64,000 nucleotides of DNA from Moniliophthora roreri (taxonomy: Eukaryota; Basidiomycota; Agaricomycetes; Agaricales; Marasmiaceae): assembly GCA_001466705.2 (NCBI GenBank), contig LATX02000216.1, forward strand, positions 124,001-188,000. Reading direction: 5' to 3'. Below are positions 4,190 to 64,000 of the stretch, one piece after another (the first letter of the stretch is position 1; each line of letters opens with the position of its first letter). The notes below the pieces were generated by a model that saw only the letters and a list, made by a program, of their open reading frames with translations, ran no database searches and was not told the origin of the DNA. A program made the position numbers and the translations under genes.

Positions 4190-5164
4190 CAAGGAAGACC
4201 ATGAGGATCTCATTGCGTACTTGACGTCCGAAGAGGTAAAGTAAACTACAGAAATGGTATTTCCGCGCCATAGTTGACGCTTTACGCCACTGTCAGGTCT
4301 TCTTACCTGGAGAAATCTCCATACACCTCTCCAGGTTCATCAACTCTCCGACGACGGCGGAACTCGCCTCGCTAAGGGTCACGAATGGCATGTTGATATG
4401 GTGGTCAACAGTCTGTGTCATCATTATATCGGCGCCGCAAATCAACCCCTCGCTCAACCTCAGTGGAGATATAACATGGAAATTCTGGAACCAATGTCTT
4501 AGATTGGTCGCTTCGGGTGGAACATGAAGAGGTACTCGAATAGTCGTTCTCTGGGAACCCCAATTCAAGCCGATATGTGACCCTTTCGAAAGGACCCCGT
4601 CCGTAATCAGCACCCTGCGAACCCAGCGGCAGGCTCGACCTGAAGAATCGCTGACATTCCCTTCATCGTCTTCCAGCAACATTATCCTGCATCACTTTGT
4701 TCCTCCTCAACCAAGACCAGAAGGGCGTAGTGAGTTTTCACATATCGGAGCTGACTTACTTGGCCGCTGAGTCGAGAAACCACTTCCAAATTCTTAAAAG
4801 CAAGATAGCCGACTTTGTTGTCTCAAAGGACGGGAAAGTTTATGCGGTCATCGGAAATAAAAGCTTCGGAAGAAAACTGTGGTCAAGGAACTACATCGCA
4901 ATATGCAAGATCTACGGAGTAGTAACGAGAGTCTTGTTGGCTTTGCATTTGTTCTGGGAGAGAGGCTGGCTTTTGGAGGTCGCCTTGTTTGACTGGGAAG
5001 CCGATGCAAAACGGCCTAGATGGGTTGGTGCTTTGAACGGAGCGCCTATGTGGTACATAGCCTTGGATCCTGAAGTACAAGGAAAGCTTATGGAGATCTC
5101 TAGGCAAGGCATAGAGGACTTGGTGGCTGACCTTCGCACCGTGGCGGCGGACTTGGAAGACTGA
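4190..5164 (+). pseudogene. Degenerate unknown gene
   Basis: A spliced reading joins ...YLTSEE to VFLPGEISIHLSRF across a 61-nt intron (gtaaag...gtcag) ending near 4296. It then stays open with coding-like third positions until a TGA just after ...LVASGGT. It continues in the same frame to about 4690, then shifts to the frame of the open stretch 4697-5164 (ends ...TVAADLED). The reverse strand over 4293-4682 is also open, so strand choice is not certain. The stop and the frame change suggest decay. No named domain seen. Confidence 0.35.
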
Positions 5165-6658
5165 AGCATGGAATTGTGATTGCTGTATGACGTGCTGTAC
5201 TATTCTAATGTAATGTCGGTGCATTGGGTCATCAACGAAGCGTACGCATAGTACTAAACGGTGTCTTTTCTCTCGGGGACACACCCGGTATTCTGGTCCA
5301 TGCCCTCTCGAATACGCCGCTTGTCAGCGTCGTAGTCGCCACGCCAATAAAATGATACGTCTCCGCGATAGATCTTCTCGTGAGCCAAGAACCTACCATG
5401 GGTAAGGCCTCAGCCTGGGAAGGGCGGACGAGTCAGTGGACGCCTTCCCGTAGGGTTTTTTCGCCTAAAATCAAAGCAATTAACCGTCTCAGAAGGATTA
5501 TCCGAGGTTTCCCTGCATGAACCCACGTTCTCCCAAAGCGATTTGAAGCAGAAAGGTCGTCCTAAATATACCCTTATCTGAGATTTAGGGTGGCCTTTGG
5601 ACCCCTCCCAAAATATGCTTTCCTGCAAATTTGACTTTCTCCCTTTACCCGCTCCCTGCCTCTTCCTGGTAATATGACTCCGGAAGCGTGCCAGGCATTC
5701 AACGCCAATACGTCCAAGGCGTTGCGCATTGTACCTCCTCGATGTCATGAAGAAGGCATGACATTTCTGACCACCAACTCTGAAAGTGCACGCCTTACCT
5801 CCAATACATTCGGAGCTTACGGTGTTCTTCGGAACTCCAGCCTAGCCGTTCGTTGAATCAGGCCTCTGACGGCGCCATGGTGAATTAATCGTTCATTAAA
5901 ATAATTTGATATTTCTCTCAGAAAATCGATGGATGAGAATTAAACCTTACGGCAAGTCATCCAGTAATAGCTACATATACAAATTTATCTTCCAGACGGC
6001 TCCCGACACAACTCTTCAAATTTAAACGTCTTGGGAAAGTTCTCCAGGGGCAAACAGACTCGGCTTCCTCGTCCCAGGGCATAAATGTGAACTTGTCGTG
6101 GGATTGATACCCACACGAAGAGATTCCGGAGTATGTACTATTATATATGACATATATGATATGCGCGCCAAAAAAAAAAAGGTACTGCGGCAAAGCGCTT
6201 CTATGGTAGTAGTTACCAGGTCCAAGGTACGTACCATCTTTTTTGCTGAGGGGTGTTACTTAGCTCCGGGCTTCTTGAGAATGAGATTGAGAGACATGAA
6301 AGGAGAAAGAGGTTTCGTGGAAGCATCCGATAAGTTGGGTGCTTGAGTATTTTGTGCGGTATATACAGCAACACAGGAAGAGATAGGAAGTTGGGACCGC
6401 ATGGCGTCCAATACCGTGGGGTGTGCGACGAGTGGCCACTAGATATCGTCGGAGGACGCGTCGAACACGCGATCAAACGACATGTGCAAGTGTTTCTTTT
6501 CAACATCACCTATCCGGCGGATCATCCTATAAATCAATATCGTGGTGTTCCACTAGAGTTTACTAGTACAAAGACATAAATTAGCAATAGCAAGAGTCCA
6601 TCCTCAGATAACCAAAAGCATTAATAGTTACTACAAAAAAAGAGTTCTACGCTAGGAC
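5165..6658. other. Intergenic; no convincing gene
   Basis: Several short open frames overlap here on both strands, but none has supported splice sites or a recognisable protein. The minus strand at about 5400-5290 holds a coding-like fragment (EKIYRGDVSFYWRGDYDADK), which is related to the fragment at 2960-3010. Confidence 0.4.
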
Positions 6659-29938: not shown

Positions 29939-30457
29939 TCAGACACGATATATCTTCTTTAAGGATCTTCCGCGATCCAAATCGTTTGATTTCCCCGTCC
30001 GTGCAGCACTCGTCAAGAAAGGTCTATCTTCATCCATCCTGCACTGTCCTTCAAGTTCTGCGACCATTGCCCTCAGTGCTTCTGCTTGCTCGGCGAGAAC
30101 CTCCCTCACTGGATCCTTTCGAAAATCTTCATGTTCAAGATCTTTGAGCCTTGATTGTTCGGCGCAGAAAGTTAACTTGAGCCTATTAATTCCTGGTTTT
30201 TCTTCGATAGGCGGGGTCTTGACACTAACAACGCTCAGCACCCCAGACCACACTGAAGAGAACACTTGTTTCAGGCGCCCTCTGATCATTCGAGCCACAG
30301 CCTCATCTATCTCCATTTCCGATACCATTAAAATCTGACATCCGTCGTTGACTACCTTGAGAGAACCAAAGTATCCGCGATAGCTGAAAGCCGGACCTCG
30401 CTTGATCTGCATTTGGCGTGCGCAGTGGAAAAATGTCGCAGCCCACGACAGGCACAT
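29939..30457 (-). CDS. Small unknown protein, 172 aa
   Basis: A single open frame runs from an ATG at 30457 to a stop at 29939. The C-terminal half is charged and probably helical (EDFRKDPVREVLAEQAEALR), ending in a basic tail (RGRSLKKIYRV). No named domain is seen. Its ATG lies about 60 bp from the hAT-like element at 30518, so the element may sit in its 5' region. A single-exon model could be part of a longer gene. Confidence 0.4.
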   Translation of the reverse strand: MCLSWAATFFHCARQMQIKRGPAFSYRGYFGSLKVVNDGCQILMVSEMEIDEAVARMIRGRLKQVFSSVWSGVLSVVSVKTPPIEEKPGINRLKLTFCAEQSRLKDLEHEDFRKDPVREVLAEQAEALRAMVAELEGQCRMDEDRPFLTSAARTGKSNDLDRGRSLKKIYRV

Positions 30458-30517
30458 CTATGGTTGACAACTGTAGCCTTGAGACGTGCGGGTGATGGAA
30501 TGAGTAAGAGATATACA

Positions 30518-31045
30518 CAAGGGGGCAGCGGCCCGTGGTTCCGGCACAGGCGGTCGGTCGGTCGGTTGCCTTGGACAGGCTCTTAAAAAAAATTTTTGGG
30601 CCAATTTTTTTTAGGGTTTCTAGAGCTTTATTTGGTGTACTTACAGTAGATAACAGACGAGGAGGCTGGAGTGGCCGAAAACAATATCATCACCTGCAGA
30701 AATCAGGGATGTGAAGGGAGATACGTGAGTGTAAGGAATTTCAATGTCTGGCTATAATGCTCACCACTTGAAATGGCAGTTCCACATGGCTTGCGTGTAT
30801 GAGCCATATCCTCAACGTAACTGGACCTGCGACGCATGCACGGCGATGAAACGTCAAAAGGATTGAGGAGCGTTGCCACGTCGCTCGCTCGCTAGACTCT
30901 CGGAATAGCCCGTATGTTTTCTTGACATGTGATAATTGCCTAATATGGTAATCTTACATAATCTACGGTCGGTCGGTTGCCTCCAGCTCGCCTTAAAAAA
31001 AAATTCGACCCTATGTCTTAAAAAAAAATTTCTGCTGCCCCCTTG
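30518..31045 (+). mobile_element. hAT-like non-autonomous element carrying a PHD-finger fragment
   Basis: The element is 528 bp. It starts CAAGGGGGCAGC (30518-30529) and ends with the exact reverse complement (31034-31045). Both ends are flanked by GATATACA (30510-30517 and 31046-31053), an 8-bp target-site duplication. TIRs beginning CA(A/G)GG and 8-bp duplications are the hAT superfamily mark. Subterminal repeats of cggtcggtcggttgcc followed by cttaaaaaaaatt occur near both ends, as expected for transposase binding. There is no transposase, so it must be mobilised in trans. Confidence 0.85.
30654..30865 (+). pseudogene. Captured C-terminal half of a PHD finger, with intron
   Basis: Inside the hAT-like element the plus strand reads EEAGVAENNIITCRNQGCEG, then RY. 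A 55-nt GT-AG intron follows (gtgagt...tggcag), then FHMACVYEPYPQRNW and TCDACTAMKRQKD with TGA at about 30863. The pattern C-x4-C-x3-FH-x2-C ... W-x-C-x2-C is the second half of a PHD zinc finger, which reads histone H3 tails. An acceptor-like site precedes it, so it looks like two exons of a host or transposon gene captured with their intron. Confidence 0.6.
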
Positions 31046-31195
31046 GATATACATTGAAGGACGTTGAAAGATCCTTCCGAGTGGGTGAATGATTGGATGA
31101 GGGAATGACGCCGTTTCAGGGGCGGATGGGTCCTGCAGATGACAAGTAGTCTATAACTCTGAACAGAGTAAGTATCTACCCCGCAGAAAAACAAA

Positions 31196-51483: not shown

Positions 51484-53018
51484 ATGCCCCAGGCCAGATA
51501 TTGGGAAGTGGGTCAGTGTTTATTATATATATCAAGACCTTTGATCATTTGGTTTTCCCAGAGTATATCCTGTGAGCAAAAACTAGCCCTGATGATGGTT
51601 GGGTATGTATTGGTTGATGCTATGACTTGTGGCAACTCAGTAACCAGTTGTAATCTTCTCAGAACTATTTAGTCAAGGTCAGTTCCTCTTGCCGATCAAT
51701 CCTGTTGTTGTACTCATCTCTCCCAGTGGGTTGGCTGGCCCTACCACATCAATATGTTAGTTTCACCTCTTCTAGATCTGCTTGCTGTACCTAACATGTC
51801 TGCAATATCCAGCTGGGAGCCTCCCTCAAGTCTTCAAAGTTGTGGATTTCTCGTGTCAGGGTTTTGGCAGAATGCTGAGCAGCTCAGTGATGGGTCCTTC
51901 CAAGCAAACCAGGACTGGGTTGAGAGGATGTGTTAGTCCCTATTTCCATATTCTCAATGTTCTTCTCATTTCAGCACCAAGTAGCTCATCCTACAGAGCA
52001 AGGTGTGCAACGCTCGGTAAGCAGACATTGGTATGGACTATTGTCAATTATTGTTTCTAATTGCGTACTCTAAGGTCAAACCACCTGGTGTTGTTATGGA
52101 CATGAATGCTGAGGTTTATGATTCCAGTATGCTTTGGGTAACCCCGGAGCACAGTAGTGTGGACCTGGATGACCAAGAAAACAAGTTCAAGGTATGTTTT
52201 CCAGGCAAAATATTCTATAAGACCTAGTCCCACCATTACTGTAGGTTGTTTGTGCATCTGTAAATGATATCAATGTCGATGGACTGGCAATATTTCAGTG
52301 TGTCAAGTGCGATGAAAAAGAAAGAAAGAAGGTACCCAAAGCAAATTCCTACCAAGTACCATAGTAATGTGTGATTTCTAGCAGGAGCGACAAGAAGGAA
52401 GAAAACAGCATCTGGAATGTCCTGTAAGTCATCGCCTGCTGTCATACATTAGGAACCAAGCCTCACACTTTCAATATGAAGATTTGCTTTGACCACTTAT
52501 CTGAAAATGCATACGTGTTGGGCTGTGGCTGCCAGCAACTGTACTGTGGAAGCTGCACAGGAGAGGTTATCCAAAGACAGGGTGATGCAGAAGGGAGAAT
52601 GAAATGTGAGTTCATGACCTTCCTCAGATCAGGGGCTTGATTTTTAATCCCAGATCAGGCCTTCTCTGCCATGTGAACGTCCCCGTCTTGTCTTTGGCGT
52701 GGTTCAAACTCCATAGCAAGGAAAATCATAAAGAAAAAATAAAGGCAAGCAGGTGCGGATATCAGGCATGGAAGAAGAAAGCCAAAAAGGCTGTCCAACA
52801 GGCTGCCTGGCTTCAGCATCAAGAAGTGGGTGGCAACGTCTCTGATGAAAGTAAGTTACCACCATTTCTACTTAGGTTCTATTTGAACACTAACATGCTG
52901 TCATCAAGGCTTGCCACCTGCTACTCCAAGGTCAAAGAAGAGCAGGAAGCACAAGCCTCAGCAACAGATGCACCAGTCTCATGCTCACTCTCTGTCTCTG
53001 GAGTCTCCACAGCCTTAG
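51484..53018 (+). CDS. Chromodomain plus RING-like zinc-finger protein, one in-frame TGA
   Basis: Exons 51484..51511, 51562..51602, 51663..51677 (15 nt), 51727..51755, 51813..about 51918, 51976..52017, 52075..52191, 52245..52331, 52382..52423, 52482..52605, 52659..52850, 52909..53018. The first five encode a chromodomain (ARYWEV ... NYLVKWVGWPYHINIWEPPS), which in other proteins binds methyl-lysine histone tails. Exons 8-11 encode a RING-like finger: CPICFDHL, then GCGCQQLYCGSC, then KCLLC. A basic C-terminus follows (ATPRSKKSRKHKPQQQ). TGA at 51573-51575 breaks the chromodomain after EYIL. The splice after exon 5 has two options. Apart from that stop, all phases agree. A Ty3 chromovirus origin of the chromodomain is possible, but the RING module argues for a host gene. 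Confidence 0.65.
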
Positions 53019-53846
53019 CCTGATTCTGTACAGGGATCCAGCCGAGGGCCCTTGGGTAGCACCCAATCGAGACCAATAGGTATGCATGTGAATCAAAGTA
53101 TGCCCAGTTATTAATTGCAAAGGCAGACTTAACTGAGTCCCTGAGGCCTCAGCCCAACTTCGTTCAGGGATCCAGTCAAGGGCCCTTGGGTAGCATCCAA
53201 TTGAGACCAATAGGTGTGTGCACAAATCATACTAGACACCTAGTTGTTAATCGCAGAAATAGACTTGACCGAGGATGATTGATTTCTTGTGGCTGGAGGT
53301 TTTTGGTTTCCTTAATTTTGATGCATGGAGTGCAGGCTACTCTGCTCAGATTTCTTGGGGTTCGAGGTTGAAGGTGTCCCAAACAATTCAATCCCAGTCA
53401 TATGCAGACAGATTTGGGTACTAGTAGAAAATGGTTTTGGAGTACTACTACAGAGCTTGTCAGGGAAAATAAAGCACATGCAACCAGATCCCAAATCTCA
53501 TGATAGTTATGCTGCCCAGAAGAACCAGCTCTGATGCTTGCTCTTTCCTTGCATCATTGGGAGCTCCAGAGCATTCTCTGGAATTGGCATCACAACTTGA
53601 GTCCTAGATCTTGGCATGTTCTGTTTAATGAGGTGTTCTGAACTGTTCCATATACAGAACATCTTCGTATTTCTTCATGTTTCAGATGCTTGGCTGGAGG
53701 CACCTTGAGTAGGCACCTTGATTTCTCTCTGGTCAGAAAGCAACGTTGCATTTACATCATGATATGATAAACAGATAGCATAGTTCTTTGACCATATAGA
53801 TCCACACGTGTTCTTCCTTGATAATATCACTGTTACTCATTAATAT
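53019..53846. other. Intergenic; holds a short tandem repeat
   Basis: Apart from the repeat at 53031-53275 no structure was recognised. Confidence 0.4.
53031..53275. repeat. Two-copy tandem repeat, about 130 bp
   Basis: Each copy contains agggatccag, then gggcccttgggtagca, then gagaccaatagg. Copy starts are near 53033 and 53163. Confidence 0.75.
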
Positions 53847-54718
53847 GGATTATTCTATTGGGCAACCCCCCTTTTGCGAGAAACCCCAGGGTTTCTGTTC
53901 GGTTGATTGGCTGGCCCATCAAGCACCCAAGTCCAAATACCCAGAAGAATGATGTGTGTTGTGCAAATATTGGGTAGACAGGACATGTCACTGTAAGGGT
54001 TTATTCACAGTTTGAGAGCTGGCAAAGCATGTTGAAGGATGATGGTATGCAAGATCTTAAAAATGATTTAAGTATAGAGTGGTAGGCACATAGACTGTGC
54101 AATGTGTAAACACCCTATCAATATTGTTAATGCTTGACTACACCACTCTACACATGCCTACAGTGTCTTTGACAAAATAAGGAATCAAAGATATTCATAT
54201 TGCTGAGCTAGTGAGAATATTCTGCAAGGTTTCATGTTCATACAATTTGCCTCCTACTATATGTCAAAATACAAGTTCCAGATAAATGTAGAACTGAAAA
54301 GCAAAAACATACTAGCTGCACCTACTACTTCATCCACATGGACCTCAATGTGACTTCACTTCATCTGCCAAATGACTTTGAATATCTAGAGACTTGGTGC
54401 TTTTAGGTTTGACATGATTATATTTGCAAAGCTGACATGGAAAACTTCTCATCTGGATTTCTCCAGCTCTCTGATGTTGCAACACATCAATATGTCATCC
54501 AAATAGCTCCTGTAGATACAATATTTCAAGAAGACCAAACTAGCTGTTACAGGGAAAATCATAGAGGACAGTTATAGGACAAGTAGTTGATGTGGTCAAA
54601 ATTAGGCGCTTGCTGGCCCTCTGGCTGAATGCAGAAATCCTCTTAGTGGCATTTTGTATGGGTTCCCCAGAAACCCTGGGGTTTCTTGCAGAAAGGGGGT
54701 TTTCCAATAGAATAATCC
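53847..54718. mobile_element. Mutator-like (MULE) non-autonomous element, 872 bp
   Basis: Terminal inverted repeats of about 50 bp start GGATTATTCTATTGG, continue through a C-run and AGAAACCCCAGGGTTTCTG, and are imperfect. They are flanked by CATTAATAT on both sides (53838-53846 and 54719-54727). A 9-bp target duplication with long TIRs fits the MULE superfamily. No transposase frame is inside. Confidence 0.7.
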
Positions 54719-55424
54719 CATTAATATATATGAGTACTGCTCTCAATATATTAGACTATAATTAGACTAGAGCTCAATTTAGGAGTAACATCAAACCTTA
54801 TTGATGGTACACCACAATTTAGTTGGATGTCAAAGTGTGATCTACGTTGGCAAGGATTCCCTCTCCCCATTAGACGCTCATTTTCTGCAGCATACTGTCA
54901 TTGATAACACAATTCAATTATTATGCTCAGTTCATCTCATCTGGAACTTGATTTTAGTGAAATAGTAGCCCCCCCTGCTATATAGAATGGATAGTCAGAT
55001 AGTACCAGATAGAGCTCATTACTATACCCATACATTGCTGTCTATACTGGGTTGTATATATGGTTACAGACCCATACTGTAGCCCAGTGGAGAGAAGGAA
55101 GGTACTGTACCTTTCTTCCTGTGACAGTATGGTTTACAGGTCAGTTGTAAACCATACAGACATACCATCAGATGGGTTTATGGCTGTAATATGGTCTGGG
55201 TGGGTGCTTAATGCGGCAATGGCTTCCAAATTGGGAAAAATGCTGTTGCTTGACTTTTTAGCACTACCTTGGTTCCTTTCACATCGTCAAAACCTGGTTA
55301 CTGCTTTCTTCAACACCATCAGCAGTGGTCAAGAGAAGTCAGGCTCACCTCCTTGGGCCTTCATTGAACTTAGATTGGGCTGATGGCAATTTTGAGCAGT
55401 GGAGGAATGGATTATTGGAGTGAT
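54217..55424. repeat. First copy of a 1.2-kb duplicated contig end
   Basis: The sequence from attctgcaaggtttcatg to attattggagtgat reappears at 55426-56632 with offset 1207 and no difference that I can see. Confidence 0.9.
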
Positions 55425-55425
55425 N
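55425..55425. other. Contig junction (single N)
   Basis: Separates the two identical copies of the 1.2-kb sequence. Confidence 0.9.
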
Positions 55426-56632
55426 ATTCTGCAAGGTTTCATGTTCATACAATTTGCCTCCTACTATATGTCAAAATACAAGTTCCAGATAAATGTAGAA
55501 CTGAAAAGCAAAAACATACTAGCTGCACCTACTACTTCATCCACATGGACCTCAATGTGACTTCACTTCATCTGCCAAATGACTTTGAATATCTAGAGAC
55601 TTGGTGCTTTTAGGTTTGACATGATTATATTTGCAAAGCTGACATGGAAAACTTCTCATCTGGATTTCTCCAGCTCTCTGATGTTGCAACACATCAATAT
55701 GTCATCCAAATAGCTCCTGTAGATACAATATTTCAAGAAGACCAAACTAGCTGTTACAGGGAAAATCATAGAGGACAGTTATAGGACAAGTAGTTGATGT
55801 GGTCAAAATTAGGCGCTTGCTGGCCCTCTGGCTGAATGCAGAAATCCTCTTAGTGGCATTTTGTATGGGTTCCCCAGAAACCCTGGGGTTTCTTGCAGAA
55901 AGGGGGTTTTCCAATAGAATAATCCCATTAATATATATGAGTACTGCTCTCAATATATTAGACTATAATTAGACTAGAGCTCAATTTAGGAGTAACATCA
56001 AACCTTATTGATGGTACACCACAATTTAGTTGGATGTCAAAGTGTGATCTACGTTGGCAAGGATTCCCTCTCCCCATTAGACGCTCATTTTCTGCAGCAT
56101 ACTGTCATTGATAACACAATTCAATTATTATGCTCAGTTCATCTCATCTGGAACTTGATTTTAGTGAAATAGTAGCCCCCCCTGCTATATAGAATGGATA
56201 GTCAGATAGTACCAGATAGAGCTCATTACTATACCCATACATTGCTGTCTATACTGGGTTGTATATATGGTTACAGACCCATACTGTAGCCCAGTGGAGA
56301 GAAGGAAGGTACTGTACCTTTCTTCCTGTGACAGTATGGTTTACAGGTCAGTTGTAAACCATACAGACATACCATCAGATGGGTTTATGGCTGTAATATG
56401 GTCTGGGTGGGTGCTTAATGCGGCAATGGCTTCCAAATTGGGAAAAATGCTGTTGCTTGACTTTTTAGCACTACCTTGGTTCCTTTCACATCGTCAAAAC
56501 CTGGTTACTGCTTTCTTCAACACCATCAGCAGTGGTCAAGAGAAGTCAGGCTCACCTCCTTGGGCCTTCATTGAACTTAGATTGGGCTGATGGCAATTTT
56601 GAGCAGTGGAGGAATGGATTATTGGAGTGATG
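55426..56632. repeat. Second copy of the 1.2-kb duplicated contig end
   Basis: Identical to 54217-55424 and continuing beyond it (tgaaggtgagcc). It includes the right end of the MULE-like element again, without its left end. Best read as unmerged overlapping contigs. Confidence 0.9.
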
Positions 56633-57685
56633 AAGGTGAGCCACTGCTTTTTTCACATATGTACCCATACTAATAACTCTTAGTAATCTTTAATGTCAGC
56701 CATGGTCAGTGGGGGGGCTCTCCAGACACAATTGAACTGTGTTCCATCGTTTGAAGTTAAAATAAAGTATATTTCCTTGGCAATATTCGATAACTGACCC
56801 TTTAGAGGCTCACAAACACTCGATGCAGACTTGGCAGAGCTGCATATGGCCATAATGAGGCTTCTTAAGATAACACTGTATATACAGTTGATGGTATGGT
56901 TATGACCCCGTACCTGTAACGCTATGGTTCTCAGGTAATCCAGCATATTAGACAGCGGGGAGGAGTTTGATGTGTTGTCTAAGGTGTGTCATTTGCTCAA
57001 TAGAATCCTGTATGCTAATATCTTTGAGATACAAAACAGAATATGCCGATATCTCTGTCCCTCTCTCTCTCTCAAAATCTTCAAGTCTTCACTGTGAGTC
57101 TGTCCACATTCCCATTTCATTTTCAAGCGATAATTTCAACCAAAATCATGCCATCCTTTCTCCGCCATCATCTCCCTCAACATCAATGGACCCAATCATA
57201 GAGAACAATGAGAGGAATGAGAAGAATGAGACTCAGGTGTGTTCCAAATTCCCTGTCTGATTGCCTTTTTCACTCATCCTGCCTCATAGTATTGAAAATA
57301 CCAGGTCTCACACATGCAAGTTCATTCACCTCATTGACACCCTCAACAACGACAAGTCCCATACCAACTAAATCCTTCTTCCATAGCTCAAATCTGTATA
57401 CTATCCAGTTTTCAATATATCCAATTTCCTTCTATTCCATATGTGTTGAAATATCTACACAATCTAAATACAGAAGATCACAGTACTTTAAGAAGACATG
57501 GCATTGTGATAGGCAGATCTAGGTTTGTGGCAGGCATTTGATGCTGCACCATCACGCTTTTCAGCATTCTTATTTCCACCACCACAACCCCTCTTACCAG
57601 GCTTGCTCTGCTTTGTAACTTTTGCCGGCAGGTCAAGCAAGGGATTCAAAGGTGCAGGCAGGAGTCAGTTTTGCTGCAGTCGTCT
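56633..57685. other. AT-rich intergenic; no gene seen
   Basis: No supported coding frame. A short ctctctctct run is near 57060. Confidence 0.4.
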
Positions 57686-58809
57686 CACTACGTATGAGGT
57701 GTTCTTTTAACATGGTTTTCTGATTGAGAAAACACTTAATCTTCTTGCAAAGAGAATTTTTATAAAACTATATATAAATTCTAAATTTCAATTGTGTCCT
57801 CTCAACAAGAATATGCCTGGAGAATACTAAATTTTCAGCAGCAAAAGATCTGGAATTTTCAAATTCTGAAAATTAATAGATAATACAATATATTAGAATA
57901 ATTTTCATACTGAGAAAACATTAAATTTTCTCTGGTTGAAAATGCTCAGAAAATGCTGATAAGATAAGATAAAGATTCCACATTTTCTATTGTGGGAAAA
58001 TCAGAGAAAACACTAGGAAAACACTAGGAAAACACTAGAAAGATAGTAGGAAAATCATGTGAAAACACTGTATTTTAAAGCAGTTCTTAGATAGTTTTCA
58101 TATAGTTTTCCTTTTGTATTTAACATGGTTTTCTGATTGAGAAAACACTTAATCTTCTTGCAAAGAGAATTTTTATAAAACTATATATAAATTCTAAATT
58201 TCAATTGTGTCCTCTCAACAAGAATATGCCTGGAGAATACTAAATTTTCAGCAGCAAAAGATATGGAATTTTCAAATTCTGAGAATTAATAGATAATACA
58301 ATATATTAGAATAATTTCCATACTGAGAAAACATTAAATTTTCTCTGGTTGAAAATGCTCAGAAAATGCTGATAAGATAAGATAAAAATTCCACATTTTC
58401 TATTGTGGGAAAGTCAGAGAAAACACTAGGAAAACACTAGGAAAATAGTAGGAAAATCATGTGAAAACACTATATTTCAAAGCAGTTCTTAGATAGTTTT
58501 CATATGGTTTTCCTTTTGTATTTAACATGTTTCCTTTGATATAAAATTCAAAATCTTATATTTGCTTTTTAAATGTTTTTTCACTATTTTATAAGGCAGA
58601 AAATTTGGTATATTTGTAATTAGAAAATTAAAGGATAATTCTATAATTTCATTATTATAAAATAATCAAAAAACACAGGCTCTTCTGGAAATTAAAATCC
58701 AGAGTATGCTTGCTGTTTTCAATATGTGATGATAACTTGAAACTAATAGAATTTTCTGAGTGTATTTCCTTTGTATTAATAGCATAAAAAGAACACCTCG
58801 TATGTAGTG
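57686..58809. mobile_element. AT-rich TIR element with CACTA ends, copy 1
   Basis: Starts CACTACGTATGAGGTGTTCT and ends with the near reverse complement (agaacacctcgtatgtagtg). An internal block of about 410 bp (57710-58118) is tandemly duplicated (58124-58530). No protein coding. CACTA termini suggest the CMC/EnSpm group, but I found no 2-3 bp target duplication. Confidence 0.6.
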
Positions 58810-59250
58810 GTTACTGTTCCTATCTCCTTTGACAATGCATGCTTGGTCTTATTTAGGACTTCTTATGCATTAGATATTCTTCTTACATCTTGTTGTATCT
58901 GTCTGTAGGTAGTGGATGTCCTTCAGAAGTGATTTCCTTCTTTCTGAGATGACTTTGTACCTCTTTAGTTTATTTCCCATGTTTTGCCGCTGGTGAACTC
59001 TTTATTAAGAGATCACCTGCTTTGACTTTGATCTGTATATTGACTTTGGAGGAGGATCGTTCAGTGATTGTTCCTGTTCTATGTCATCTTTTTGTTTTGA
59101 TGTCTCCTCTAAATACCTCTGNCCTGTAGGGAATCTAACTATGGCCCAATGAACACATTGGCTAGTTAATCAAGCTCTCAAAAGTGCTATCAATGGGATT
59201 TTAATTTCTACTTTACCTTTCTATGACATCTGCAAAGTGCAACATGCAGT
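58810..59250. other. Spacer between TIR elements, with contig junction at 59122
   Basis: A single N at 59122. No gene seen. Confidence 0.5.
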
Positions 59251-59685
59251 CACTACATACAAGGTGTTCTTTTAATGCTATAAATACACTCAGAATACTT
59301 CTATATATTTGCTTCCAGACAACACTCAGAAAATTCTATTAGTTTCAAGCTATCATCACATAGCAAAAACAGCAAGCATTACAAATATACTAAATTTTCT
59401 GCCTTATAAAATAGTGAGAAAAAATTTAGAAAATAAATATAAGATTTTGAATTTTATATTAAAGGAAACATATTAAATACAAAAGGAAAACTAAATGAAA
59501 ACTATCTAAGAACTGCTTTAAAATATAGTGTTTTCATATAATTTTCCTACTATTTTCCTAGTGTTTTCCTAGTGTTTTCTCTGACTTTCCCACAATAGAA
59601 AATGTGGAATTTTTATCTTATCTTATCAGCATTTTCTGAGCATTTTCAACCAGAGAAAATTTAATGTTTTCTCAGTATGGAAATT
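59251..59685. mobile_element. TIR element, copy 2 (inverted, truncated at gap 59686)
   Basis: Begins CACTACATACAAGGTGTTCT followed by taatgctataaatacactca, i.e. the reverse of the right end of copy 1. Runs to the N at 59686. Confidence 0.6.
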
Positions 59686-59686
59686 N

Positions 59687-60912
59687 TCACACAGAAGATT
59701 TGGAGACACTACGTACAAGGTGTTCTTTTAACATGGTTTTCTGATTGAGAAAACACTTAATCTTCTTGCAAAGAGAATTTTTATAAAACCATATATAAAT
59801 TCTAAATTTCAATTGTGTCCTCTCAACAAGAATATGCCTGGAGAATACTAAATTTTCAGCAGCAAAAGATATGGAATTTTCAAATTCTGAGAATTAATAG
59901 ATAATACAATATATTAGAATAATTTCCATACTGAGAAAACATTAAATTTTCTCTGGTTGAAAATGCTCAGAAAATGCTGATAAGATAAGATAAAAATTCC
60001 ACATTTTCTATTGTGGGAAAGTCAGAGAAAACACTAGGAAAACACTAGGAAAATAGTAGGAAAATTATATAAAAACACTATATTTCAAAGCAGTTCTTAG
60101 ATAGTTTTCATTTAGTTTTTCTTTTGTATTTAACATGTTTCCTTTAATATAAAATTCAAAATCTTATATCTGTTTTCTAAATGTTTTCTCACTATTTTAT
60201 AAGGCAGAAAATTTAGTATATTTGTAATTAGAAAATTAAAGGATAATTCTATAACTTCATTATTATAAAATAATCAAAAAACACTGACTCTTCCGGAAAT
60301 CAAAATCCAGAGTATGCTTGCTGTTTTCACTATGTGATAATAACTTGAAACTAATAGAATTTTCTGAGTGTTGTCTGGAAGCAAATATATAGCAGTATTC
60401 TGAGTGTATTTCCTTTGTATTAATAGCATTAAAAGAACACCTCATACGTAGTGAAAGGAAACATGTTAAATACAAAAGGAAAACTATATAAAAACTATCT
60501 AAAAACTGCTTTAAAATATAATGTTTTCACATGATTTTCCTACCATTTTTCTAGTGTTTTCCTAGTGTTTTCTCTGACTTTCCCACAATAGAAAATGTGG
60601 AATTTTTATCTTATCTTATCAGCATTTTCTGAGCATTTTCAACCAGAGAAAATTTAATGTTTTCTCAGTATGGAAATTATTCTAATATATTGTATTATCT
60701 ATTAATTCTCAGAATTTGAAAATTCCATATCTTTTGCTGCTGAAAATTTAGTATTCTCCAGGCATATTCTTGTTGAGAGGACACAATTGAAATTTAGAAT
60801 TTATATATGGTTTTATAAAAATTCTCTTTGCAAGAAGATTAAGTGTTTTCTCAATCAGAAAACCATGTTAAAAGAACACCTTGTACGTAGTGTCTCCAAA
60901 TCTTCTGTGTGA
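59687..60912. repeat. Hairpin contig: ~455-bp inverted arms of the TIR family
   Basis: Between Ns at 59686 and 60913. The contig starts tcacacagaagatttggaga and ends with its exact reverse complement. Arms 59687-60145 and 60455-60912 are near-identical inverted copies around a loop of about 310 bp. A full element (59707-60453) lies inside the left part. Confidence 0.8.
59707..60453. mobile_element. TIR element, copy 3 (747 bp)
   Basis: Left end CACTACGTACAAGGTGTTCT, right end agaacacctcatacgtagtg. Lacks the internal duplication of copy 1, so this is probably the basic form. Confidence 0.65.
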
Positions 60913-60913
60913 N

Positions 60914-61639
60914 TTCAGTGGTGAAGGCCAAGTAGTAATAGCCTCCATCTTATCATGGGTAGGTTTGAGTCCCACATAGGTACACCTGTGTCCTACTACA
61001 ATTGTTTCATTGCAGCATACAAAAGACTTTTTCCCCATGAATGTTCCACCACAGTATTTAACACGTTGTAAAGTTCAATTTATGCTCTGCATATGTTCCC
61101 ATACAAAGCATCTTATGCCTGGATTTTCTGGTATCATTTCATACCCTCCACCTTCTAGTTTGTATCTTGTCTTTGGCATCATCAATATACAGCTGCATAA
61201 CCTGAGGTATTTCATCCTTCAGGATTTCACAGACATCCTCATGGAATATAGGAACCAAATTAGTCTATCCCATAGGTAATTTGACTAGTATGTACATGCC
61301 AAAAGGTGTTTGAAATGTGGTCAAGTCCCACGATGAAGAATGTATTTTCCTTTCATTGTATTCTATGAACAAATCCAGAGTCCCTCTACAAGCTCTTCCT
61401 GCAAAATGATTTGCTAGCTCATATGTCACTGGGAGAATCCCTGAATATTGTATCGTCACAGCATTCAACAGTTCTAAACTGTGCACTATATGCAGTCTTC
61501 CATCTTTCTTAGCAACACAGAACCATCGGGAACAATATGAACTGTTTGATGGTTCATAAGTCTTGCTCATAATCTTTCCTTTAATTATGTTACACACTTT
61601 GTCAAAGATTCCTGGTGGAATTGGTGCATTTTTGAACAC
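60914..61639 (-). mobile_element. Ty3/Gypsy reverse transcriptase remnant
   Basis: The minus strand reads SSYCSRWFCVAKKDGRLHIV, ANHFAGRACRGTLDLF, LTTFQTPFGMYILVKLPMG, then FHEDVCEILKDEIPQ and LYIDDAKDK (the YIDD active-site motif), followed by frames broken by stops. This is the RT core of a fungal Ty3/Gypsy element. It is degenerate and cut by the N at 60913. Confidence 0.8.
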
Positions 61640-61660
61640 CCACTTTTACATTTCTTTTCT

Positions 61661-61661
61661 N
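61661..61661. other. Contig junction (single N)
   Basis: Lies just upstream of the RT remnant (minus strand). Confidence 0.85.
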
Positions 61662-62756
61662 TCATTGCTCTTGCTTACTTTTTTACTTAGATGCTCAATC
61701 ACTAACACACATAGCATCAGATTGCAATATACTTGGAAAAGGCCTTGCTAACACAGATTAGTCTCTACTATCTTACACTATCATAATCTAAATCTGTTTC
61801 ATTAGCAGCAGACCTGATAGAAGCCAATGCTACCGGAATATACCCAAACACATTCCTTCTCCAACTCAACTCACTGCTCTTAGCACATTTTTCATTCTAA
61901 TTCCTCCACCAACTCCTTGATTGTCTTTCAACTTCCATTACTGTCACTACTTCAACCTTTACATCTGCAACAAGATGCCATATCCTTCATTATCACCATT
62001 CTTGCAGTCATCAGACATAGGCCTTAAGGTGGGCAGAGACAGCTCACACCTTATAATATTGCAGATCACTTTCCAAGTACCAACTGATCAGTGTACCAGG
62101 TTCTGAGAATAATGCCTGTGTTGTGCTGACAAGAATTTTGTCTTTGGAGGCCAAGAGCAGCCAGACCATCATACACATATGAGCACACATTAGAATTCCC
62201 ATATCAGAAGTCTATAGACACTATAGATCCTCATTTAGCTGCACAAGATATGTTCTGGCCCAAAACCTTTCCTGTAGACAAGGAGAACAATATGACTGTA
62301 ATATCAAACTTGTCAGTGAATGGGTTGGTGTAAACTACCAACAGGAACAAGTTCAGTTTTTTTGAATATTTTTATAGTTTTTGCAACAATAATACAACCA
62401 GAAGAGCATTGACAAAGTGTGAGAAAGTGCACCATACTTACTCACAGTCACCTTCTGCTGTACCTATCTATTACAAGAGGAGCTCAATTGAAGACTAATC
62501 AGCATATCTTGCAGCGTAGAGGGCAGAAATAAGCTTTGGCCTCAAGGCAAACAGAGGACAAATGTTAAGACTGCAGGACAGAGCTGTAACAATCACCAAG
62601 GACTTACTCTTTTTTTCTTCTTACATAGTTACCATTACCTATGCCTTCTTCTTACTTAACTTGTATTACACATGCAAACTTCTTTCTTACTCAGTTTCCT
62701 ACTCAGACTGCTGTGGCACAGTCATTTATTTATAATAACCAATAGGCTCTCTAGCA
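61662..62756. other. AT-rich repeat-derived spacer; no gene seen
   Basis: No supported frame. Confidence 0.4.
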
Positions 62757-63093
62757 CTTTTTAGATAGTTTTCATATAGTTTTCCTTTTGTATTTAACAT
62801 GTTTCCTTTGATATAAAATTCAAAATCTTATATTTATTTTCTAAATGTTTTCTCACTATTTTATAAGGCAGAAAATTAAAGGATAATTCTATAATTTCAT
62901 TATCATAAAATAATAAAAAAACACAGACTCTTCTGGAAATTAAAATCCAGAGTATGCTTGCTGTTTTCAATATGTGATGACAACTTGAAACTAATAGAAT
63001 TTTCTGAGTGTTGTCTAGAAGCAAATATATAGCAGTATTCTGGGTGTATTTCCTTTGTATTAATAGCATAAAAAGAACACCTCATACGTAGTG
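62757..63093. mobile_element. TIR element, copy 4 (right part only)
   Basis: Matches the right 330 bp of copies 1 and 3, ending agaacacctcatacgtagtg. The left part is missing. Confidence 0.65.
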
Positions 63094-63289
63094 CAAGGAG
63101 TTTCCATGAGTCCACAAGTATCCCTTATACTCTAACTGAGACACAACAGTTTCCATTTGGGATATCGGATCTTCCCCCAGATATTATTGGAACCCAGAAC
63201 ATGCATTCATACCAGAACTCACCAACAGAAACCAACAATCTGGAAACCAATCCCTTAACTCCTCACCTTTACCAATAACCTCTAAAGAA

Positions 63290-64000
63290 ATGACAACTCA
63301 GCTGACCAGAACATCACTAGAGGATTTGATTTCAGCACTCCGGAATCTCAGGAGCAAACAAGGAGAAGAGAAGAAGAAAGAGAACAAGGTCACTGTTCCT
63401 AAGGAATTTGATGGCCAATCTGATAATCCCCTTTCTTTCATCACGGAAGTACAGCTCTATCTCTGAGCTAATCTGAACATATATCCAAAAGATGAAGATA
63501 AGATCACATTCATGCTGTCATACATGAAAAAGAGTGCTGCTAACAAATGGATGCAGGCAAAGAATGCCGAGATAGAAAGGCTTATGGAAGAAAAGGCACT
63601 AGAACCAACAGATACAAAACCAGAAGAACAAGTCCATCTTCCCACCTGGAAGGACTTCTTACCAGTGGATCTGGCAACCAGTGCACGGATCAAGATGAAG
63701 TCTCTCAAACAGAACAAACAGCCAATTGATGAGTACATCAACAATTTCAAACTCCTTGCAGCAGATACTACTTATGATGATGCTGCTCTTATTGATCATT
63801 TCTTGAATGGCCTTAATGAGAGACTTTTGGGCATGTGCCTCTCTACTCCCGATCAACTGGATAATATAGAAGAATGGTACGACTGAGCTAGAAAATACAA
63901 TAACAATTGGCTCACCAAACTGGCAATCACTGGAGCTAGAAGCAAATCAGAGAAAGCTTCTAAACCAAACCTAAAGGTGAATTGCCTTTCTGATGCAGAA
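63290..64000 (+). mobile_element. Ty3/Gypsy Gag remnant, runs off the window
   Basis: From an ATG at 63290 (MTTQLTRTSLEDLISAL) the frame contains the retrotransposon Gag core: VPKEFDGQSDNPLSFITEVQ, then DEDKITFMLSYMKKSAANKW, then ATSARIKMKSLKQNKQPIDE. Stops interrupt it at 63463-63465 (TGA) and 63884-63886 (TGA). Beyond the second stop the frame is still Gag-like (ARKYNNNWLTK). The order of Gag (plus) and RT (minus) shows that these are two different elements. Confidence 0.75.

Follow-up and report, generated by a model that had tools for sequence, protein, structure and literature searches.

Has a short transposon in the genome of the cacao-pathogen fungus Moniliophthora roreri captured part of a host PHD-finger gene, or does the PHD sequence belong to the transposon itself? 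The question is raised by a mobile-element remnant of 528 bases, spanning positions 30518–31045 of a 64,000-nucleotide stretch of contig LATX02000216.1 (positions 124,001–188,000, forward strand; hereafter the window). The initial annotation described it as a hAT-type miniature inverted-repeat transposable element (MITE) carrying captured exons. We conclude that the element is very probably a solitary internal-deletion derivative of a 5.8–7-kb DNA transposon family of Agaricomycetes, and that its PHD piece was most likely not stolen from the host but is the tail of the parent transposon's own gene. We reconstruct that gene as coding, over many exons, for one long transposase. It would start with a CxxC..H..C finger at the N-terminus, continue with an RNase H core of P-element type that contains an insertion domain, and close with an ING-like PHD finger, in which the last intron sits after a CExxW/Y motif.

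The mobile nature of the element was correctly recognized: its terminal inverted repeats (TIRs) are perfect over 12 bp, its target-site duplication (TSD) is perfect over 8 bp, and the two direct subterminal repeats are 78% identical over 40 nt (Table 1). Two coding blocks also splice, as proposed, into the C-terminal part of a PHD finger with its stop codon, giving a tail of 53 residues. Its matches to Pfam PHD models do not reach the curated cut-off (PHD_NSD, 0.0011; PHD, 0.003), and a Pfam scan with a limit of 0.001 returned no match. No ATG lies ahead of the PHD part in the first exon, and the first C-x-C pair of zinc ligands is missing from the window copy taken by itself.

The termini belong to a family. 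Searched as DNA against the 59.4-Mb genome, the complete element had at least 49 matches, all except its own limited to the ends (40 of 51 candidates were scored), and a 14-bp TIR pattern allowing at most one mismatch occurred 39 times, against 9 for a reversed control. Among fetched loci we retained 36 TIR elements with 8-bp TSDs (41 minus 5 artefacts or composites); with at most one TSD mismatch as the selection rule, 28 of the 36 have a perfect TSD and 8 have one mismatch. They comprise a CAGGGGGG type (542–688 bp), a CAAGGGGG type (498–535 bp), a 1200–1240-bp type, a 902–1049-bp type (CAAGGGGGGGGC), besides single elements. At its 5' end (first ~95 bp) the window element is 70–78% identical to the CAGGGGGG and 1240-bp types at the corresponding end, and its last ~135 bp are 73–77% identical to the 1240-bp type. 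Dozens of copies share the termini, but the interior is unique to the window. The name MITE, in the strict sense of many near-identical copies with the same interior, therefore does not apply. Two further loci of the CAGGGGGG type, a 1,612-bp element with TSD GATCCTGA (L086, C77:28900-31300) and a second of that length carrying this TSD in reverse (L087, C78:820100-824600), are probably a duplicated region.

The PHD tail recurs in the same company. Used as a protein query, the window tail had 28 matches at E≤1, two of them the window itself; all 18 of the other fetched loci carry at least one family TIR, eight unfetched matches lying outside this check. In the 1200–1240-bp and 902–1049-bp types the PHD sequence immediately precedes the 3' terminus and is interrupted by the intron at the same codon. 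This intron is present in ten distinct tails (the window, C66, C105, C115, C72, C90, C104, C12, C153 and C100); as the pattern used demanded an intron at that place, the count shows that such tails exist and says nothing about the absence of others. The 1240-bp type also retains an N-terminal finger, DGKVHCPNC..H..C, and a 564-bp element on C23 retains that finger alone. That separate short elements retain separate parts of one gene points to a larger parent having undergone internal deletion. One 1240-type element (L082, C105:402800-411700) is split by a long terminal repeat retrotransposon, with 300-nt direct repeats 6,851 bp apart and gag/pol-like frames on the + strand.

Long elements of the expected kind are present in the genome. 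One, C63:2728-8494, measures 5,767 bp; its TIRs are CAAGGGGGTGGC and GCTACCCCCTTG, and a perfect TSD (GTTGCAAT/GTTGCAAT) lies on both sides. Three small stretches of it were read. Its transposase core match (5048-5974) lies within a stop-free 704-residue frame, its C-terminal finger and PHD exon are in stop-free frames, and its tail reads CKRLGCETEW, the intron, then MHLSCL..FICDSC. A 1339-bp element on C100 (E40; TSD CTTGCATG) is 93% identical to C63 over its first 351 bp and 95.6% over its last 341 bp; in the same search its bases 352-500 had no match in C63, so C63 is a near relative of the parent of E40 and not the parent itself. By following related N-terminal fingers we located long, decayed copies on C12 and C90. 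The C90 copy (219456-226481; 7,026 bp) is nested inside a 1240-type element, holds an insert with inverted arms of ~440 nt, and ends in a CPNC finger, a PLVISEAH motif and a PHD with an in-frame stop in its first exon. At C115:31354-32244, a distant P-like core match (30% identity, 540-residue frame with four TGA stops) may represent a second lineage.

The PHD of the family is of the ING class, with C4HC3 ligands and ING similarity. A profile of eight tails, the window tail included, matches ING1-5, Yng1, Yng2, Png2 and Pho23 chains (best 8.5e-7); at E≤0.01 there are 21 matches, all bearing these names except one, PHF21A. Taken singly, each of six tails matches at least one Pfam PHD model, some matching other zinc-binding models too. 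The tryptophan of the ING cage for histone H3 trimethylated at lysine 4 (H3K4me3) lies at the W of CETEW, where the window has Y; the cage tyrosine of H3K4me3-reading ING proteins is not evident in the family tails. In a complete transposase the PHD may bind the tails of histone H3, which could affect the place of insertion or the timing of activity.

For the catalytic core we used the core of the broken C12 copy as query, read through with X at stops, and obtained 190 homologous proteins; the 120 listed include proteins of Hymenopellis, Mycena, Collybia, Armillaria, Psilocybe, Pleurotus, Lactarius, Coniophora and others. The predicted structure of one homologue, P0002, has the P-type transposase fold, an RNase H core with an insertion domain. 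According to PMC8230255, the P-type signature consists of catalytic D, D, a [C/D](2)H motif after beta-5, and E in the following helix. In an alignment of 44 proteins, D288 and D406 of P0002 are conserved in at least 90% and D454, H457 and E629 are invariant; the model places D288 in strand 281-291, D406 just past strand 398-405, D454 just past strand 450-453 and E629 in helix 626-639, positions that fit the signature by an assignment made without residue-by-residue superposition. Pfam TNP-like_RNaseH_N stayed below its cut-off in four of five homologues (E 0.0079–0.097), and a profile search of PDB sequences returned no P-element chain at E≤1.

None of the 120 listed homologues has a precomputed Pfam domain. 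Their displayed names are 'hypothetical' or 'uncharacterized' except for three zinc-finger labels (P0005 of Collybia nuda, P0039, and P0102 of Lyophyllum shimeji), and UniRef names two of them 'PHD-type zinc finger protein'. Protein models reach 1,648 residues; among the 32 of at least 1250 residues, 22 have a CxxC..H..C finger in the first 250 residues and 3 a strict full-PHD motif in the last 200. The PHD-tail profile, built partly from three of these proteins, matches 9 of 121. Four of the nine matches end at the intron residue, and three of those four run on like unspliced intron (VS.., VS.., VR..).

Table 1. Features of the window element
Feature	Position in window	Strand	Basis
Left 8-bp TSD, GATATACA	30510..30517	.	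Direct comparison and simulation
Left TIR, CAAGGGGGCAGC	30518..30529	+	10/12 bases as in C63 CAAGGGGGTGGC
5' terminal region, containing subterminal repeat 30555-30594	30530..30648	+	Alignment to other types
Putative deletion junction, 5' terminal sequence to inside of last-but-one exon (set by eye, uncertainty ~15 bp)	30635..30650	+	Inference
Penultimate-exon remnant, ITDEEAGVAENNIITCRNQGCEGRY, in-frame TAG ahead	30650..30724	+	Protein search and tail listing
Intron, 55 nt, GTGAGT..TGGCAG, position as in relatives	30725..30779	+	Tail comparison
Last exon, FHMACVYEPYPQRNWTCDACTAMKRQKD and stop: C-terminal part of transposase PHD finger	30780..30866	+	Protein and profile searches
3' terminal region, containing second subterminal repeat 30966-31005	30867..31033	+	Alignment to other types
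Right TIR, GCTGCCCCCTTG	31034..31045	+	11/12 bases as in C63 GCTACCCCCTTG
Right 8-bp TSD, GATATACA	31046..31053	.	Direct comparison and simulation

Chance alone is a poor source of such boundaries: in 200 simulated 64-kb windows (Markov-1), no pair passed a rule of perfect 12-bp TIR plus perfect 8-bp TSD at a spacing of 100-3000 bp. The real window held four further pairs under the same rule, all in its AT-rich, inverted-repeat-rich end at 58–63 kb, so the rule is insufficient alone to call transposons. That end is part of a longer stretch (53000-64000; GC down to 29% in 2-kb steps) with dense direct and inverted repeats, many 91–100% identical, and decayed frames, which looks like nested transposons. 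Next to the element, on the - strand, lies a 172-residue frame (29939-30457); joined with a second flanking frame in a protein search, it matched solely a 157-residue protein encoded by the window itself.

The window element shares TIRs, terminal regions and a gene part with the long elements and has no transposase core, as expected of a non-autonomous derivative. It would have arisen from a long parent that lost ~5 kb or more from between its ~130-bp 5' end and its penultimate exon; the family transposase would then have moved it in trans, leaving the 8-bp duplication. We regard the PHD remnant as a passenger, retained because it adjoins the 3' terminal sequences and probably not translated. 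Judged from its residues, the fragment is not a working reader, because the first zinc ligands are absent.

Several observations weigh against this derivation. No close parent turned up in the assembly: as DNA, the interior (30615-30965) is single copy, with no other match in the genome at E≤10; the 3' end of the window element has no DNA alignment with C63 beyond the TIR, and its PHD is only 38–52% identical to those of relatives. C63 is not intact: in-frame stops occur in the 401 core bases read ahead of the open stretch, and the finger search did not return its N-terminal finger, the match to E40 stopping short of the finger at E40 base 351. Reading of the C90 copy left out 223701-225198, and the 8-mers on its two sides are alike at only 6 of 8 positions. 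All single-tail PHD matches fall under the Pfam curated cut-offs, and 112 of 121 homologous proteins gave no PHD match, possibly because many models are short or partial, or because some proteins truly lack the domain. The evidence for the fold rests on homologues, P0002 being 47% identical to the query region, and a second model searched with Foldseek had no P-element among its best 50 rows.

Capture by a hAT or other transposon of two exons from an unrelated chromosomal PHD gene (Pack-type) would explain why spliceable PHD exons sit within a short TIR element. However, a long transposon with TIRs and perfect TSD has the same tail and intron at its 3' end, as do homologous proteins from other genera, and every one of the fetched tail loci bears a family TIR. 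The PHD tail is thus the transposon's own 3' exon pair, with no source in a host gene outside the transposon, and we regard capture as highly improbable. The initial interpretation holds in part: PHD sequences with the matching intron do exist elsewhere in the genome, but as transposon tails. Its hAT affiliation likewise failed: in place of an autonomous partner with a hAT-type transposase, we found a family whose transposase, going by the homologue model, would be P-type.

The two other alternatives accept a transposon origin and give the derivative a role. Short derivatives that keep the N-terminal finger and PHD might encode a truncated protein that dampens transposition, like the KP elements of the Drosophila P family. 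The 1240-bp copies do retain an N-terminal frame of 167–189 residues plus the PHD tail, UniRef has a 187-residue predicted M. roreri protein of that frame, and raw ratios of nonsynonymous to synonymous substitution among five copies are 0.25–0.62. Yet in simulations with the observed mutation spectrum over 172 codons, run for two of ten copy pairs, synonymous changes (8/23 vs 7.0 expected, P 0.39; 7/20 vs 6.1, P 0.40) gave no sign of constraint, and a stop-free frame is expected in 43–49% of simulations. Two of four tails of this type have an ATGAGT donor, and the window copy has half a PHD with neither N-terminal finger nor ATG before it. We consider self-made repression highly improbable. 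Silencing of the parent transposon by element RNA, through the shared 3' end and PHD exon, fits termini common to dozens of copies, but the PHD region of the window is as DNA too diverged to match any other locus, and we consider this role extremely improbable. Internal deletion of a P-type parent stays our preferred origin.

With hAT transposons and hAT MITEs the window element has in common an 8-bp TSD and short TIRs starting CA(A/G)GG, as hAT TIRs do. Like Pack-MULEs and gene-capturing Helitrons it is a short mobile element with an exon-like interior, but its exons come from the transposon's own gene. The deletion in E40 relative to C63 spares both ends, as in KP and other internally deleted P elements; the window copy differs from KP in having no N-terminal DNA-binding domain, and the longer derivatives differ in showing no sign of selection (two pairs). 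KDZ and Plavaka are likewise large mushroom transposon families of basidiomycetes. In PMC12730594, Zisupton is said to make 8-bp TSDs and PlavakaA/B 2-3-bp TSDs. None of 67 KDZ matches in the genome lies within 8 kb of the element positions (KDZ only, compared by eye; Plavaka not searched here).

Internal-deletion derivatives are ordinary; the uncommon part is a mushroom P-superfamily parent with a C-terminal ING-like PHD, a combination for which we found no published description (Repbase and most subscription journals being outside the search). PMC3164196 called P-superfamily elements previously unknown in Dikarya in 2011 and reported them from rusts. Compared with the P-element superfamily (Drosophila P, THAP9, rust P-1_MLP and relatives), the present family agrees in its 8-bp TSD but adds the CxxC..H..C finger, the ING-like PHD and models of such length, and none of five homologues, some with incomplete N-termini, has a Pfam THAP match. 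A supposed case of gene capture is thereby removed and replaced by a transposon lineage unlabelled in current domain libraries, and many unnamed mushroom proteins would become recognisable to annotators as transposases. Chromatin-guided transposition would have a direct test case in a P-type transposase that is fused with an ING-like PHD. A close parallel is RAG1/RAG2, a DDE recombinase working with a PHD finger, that of RAG2, which reads H3K4me3. We tentatively suggest that the built-in ING-type PHD of this mushroom lineage, perhaps with a Tudor/PWWP-like barrel ahead of it, might steer integration or excision to H3K4-methylated chromatin, one polypeptide doing the job of RAG1 and the RAG2 PHD, with the window element as its fossil tail.
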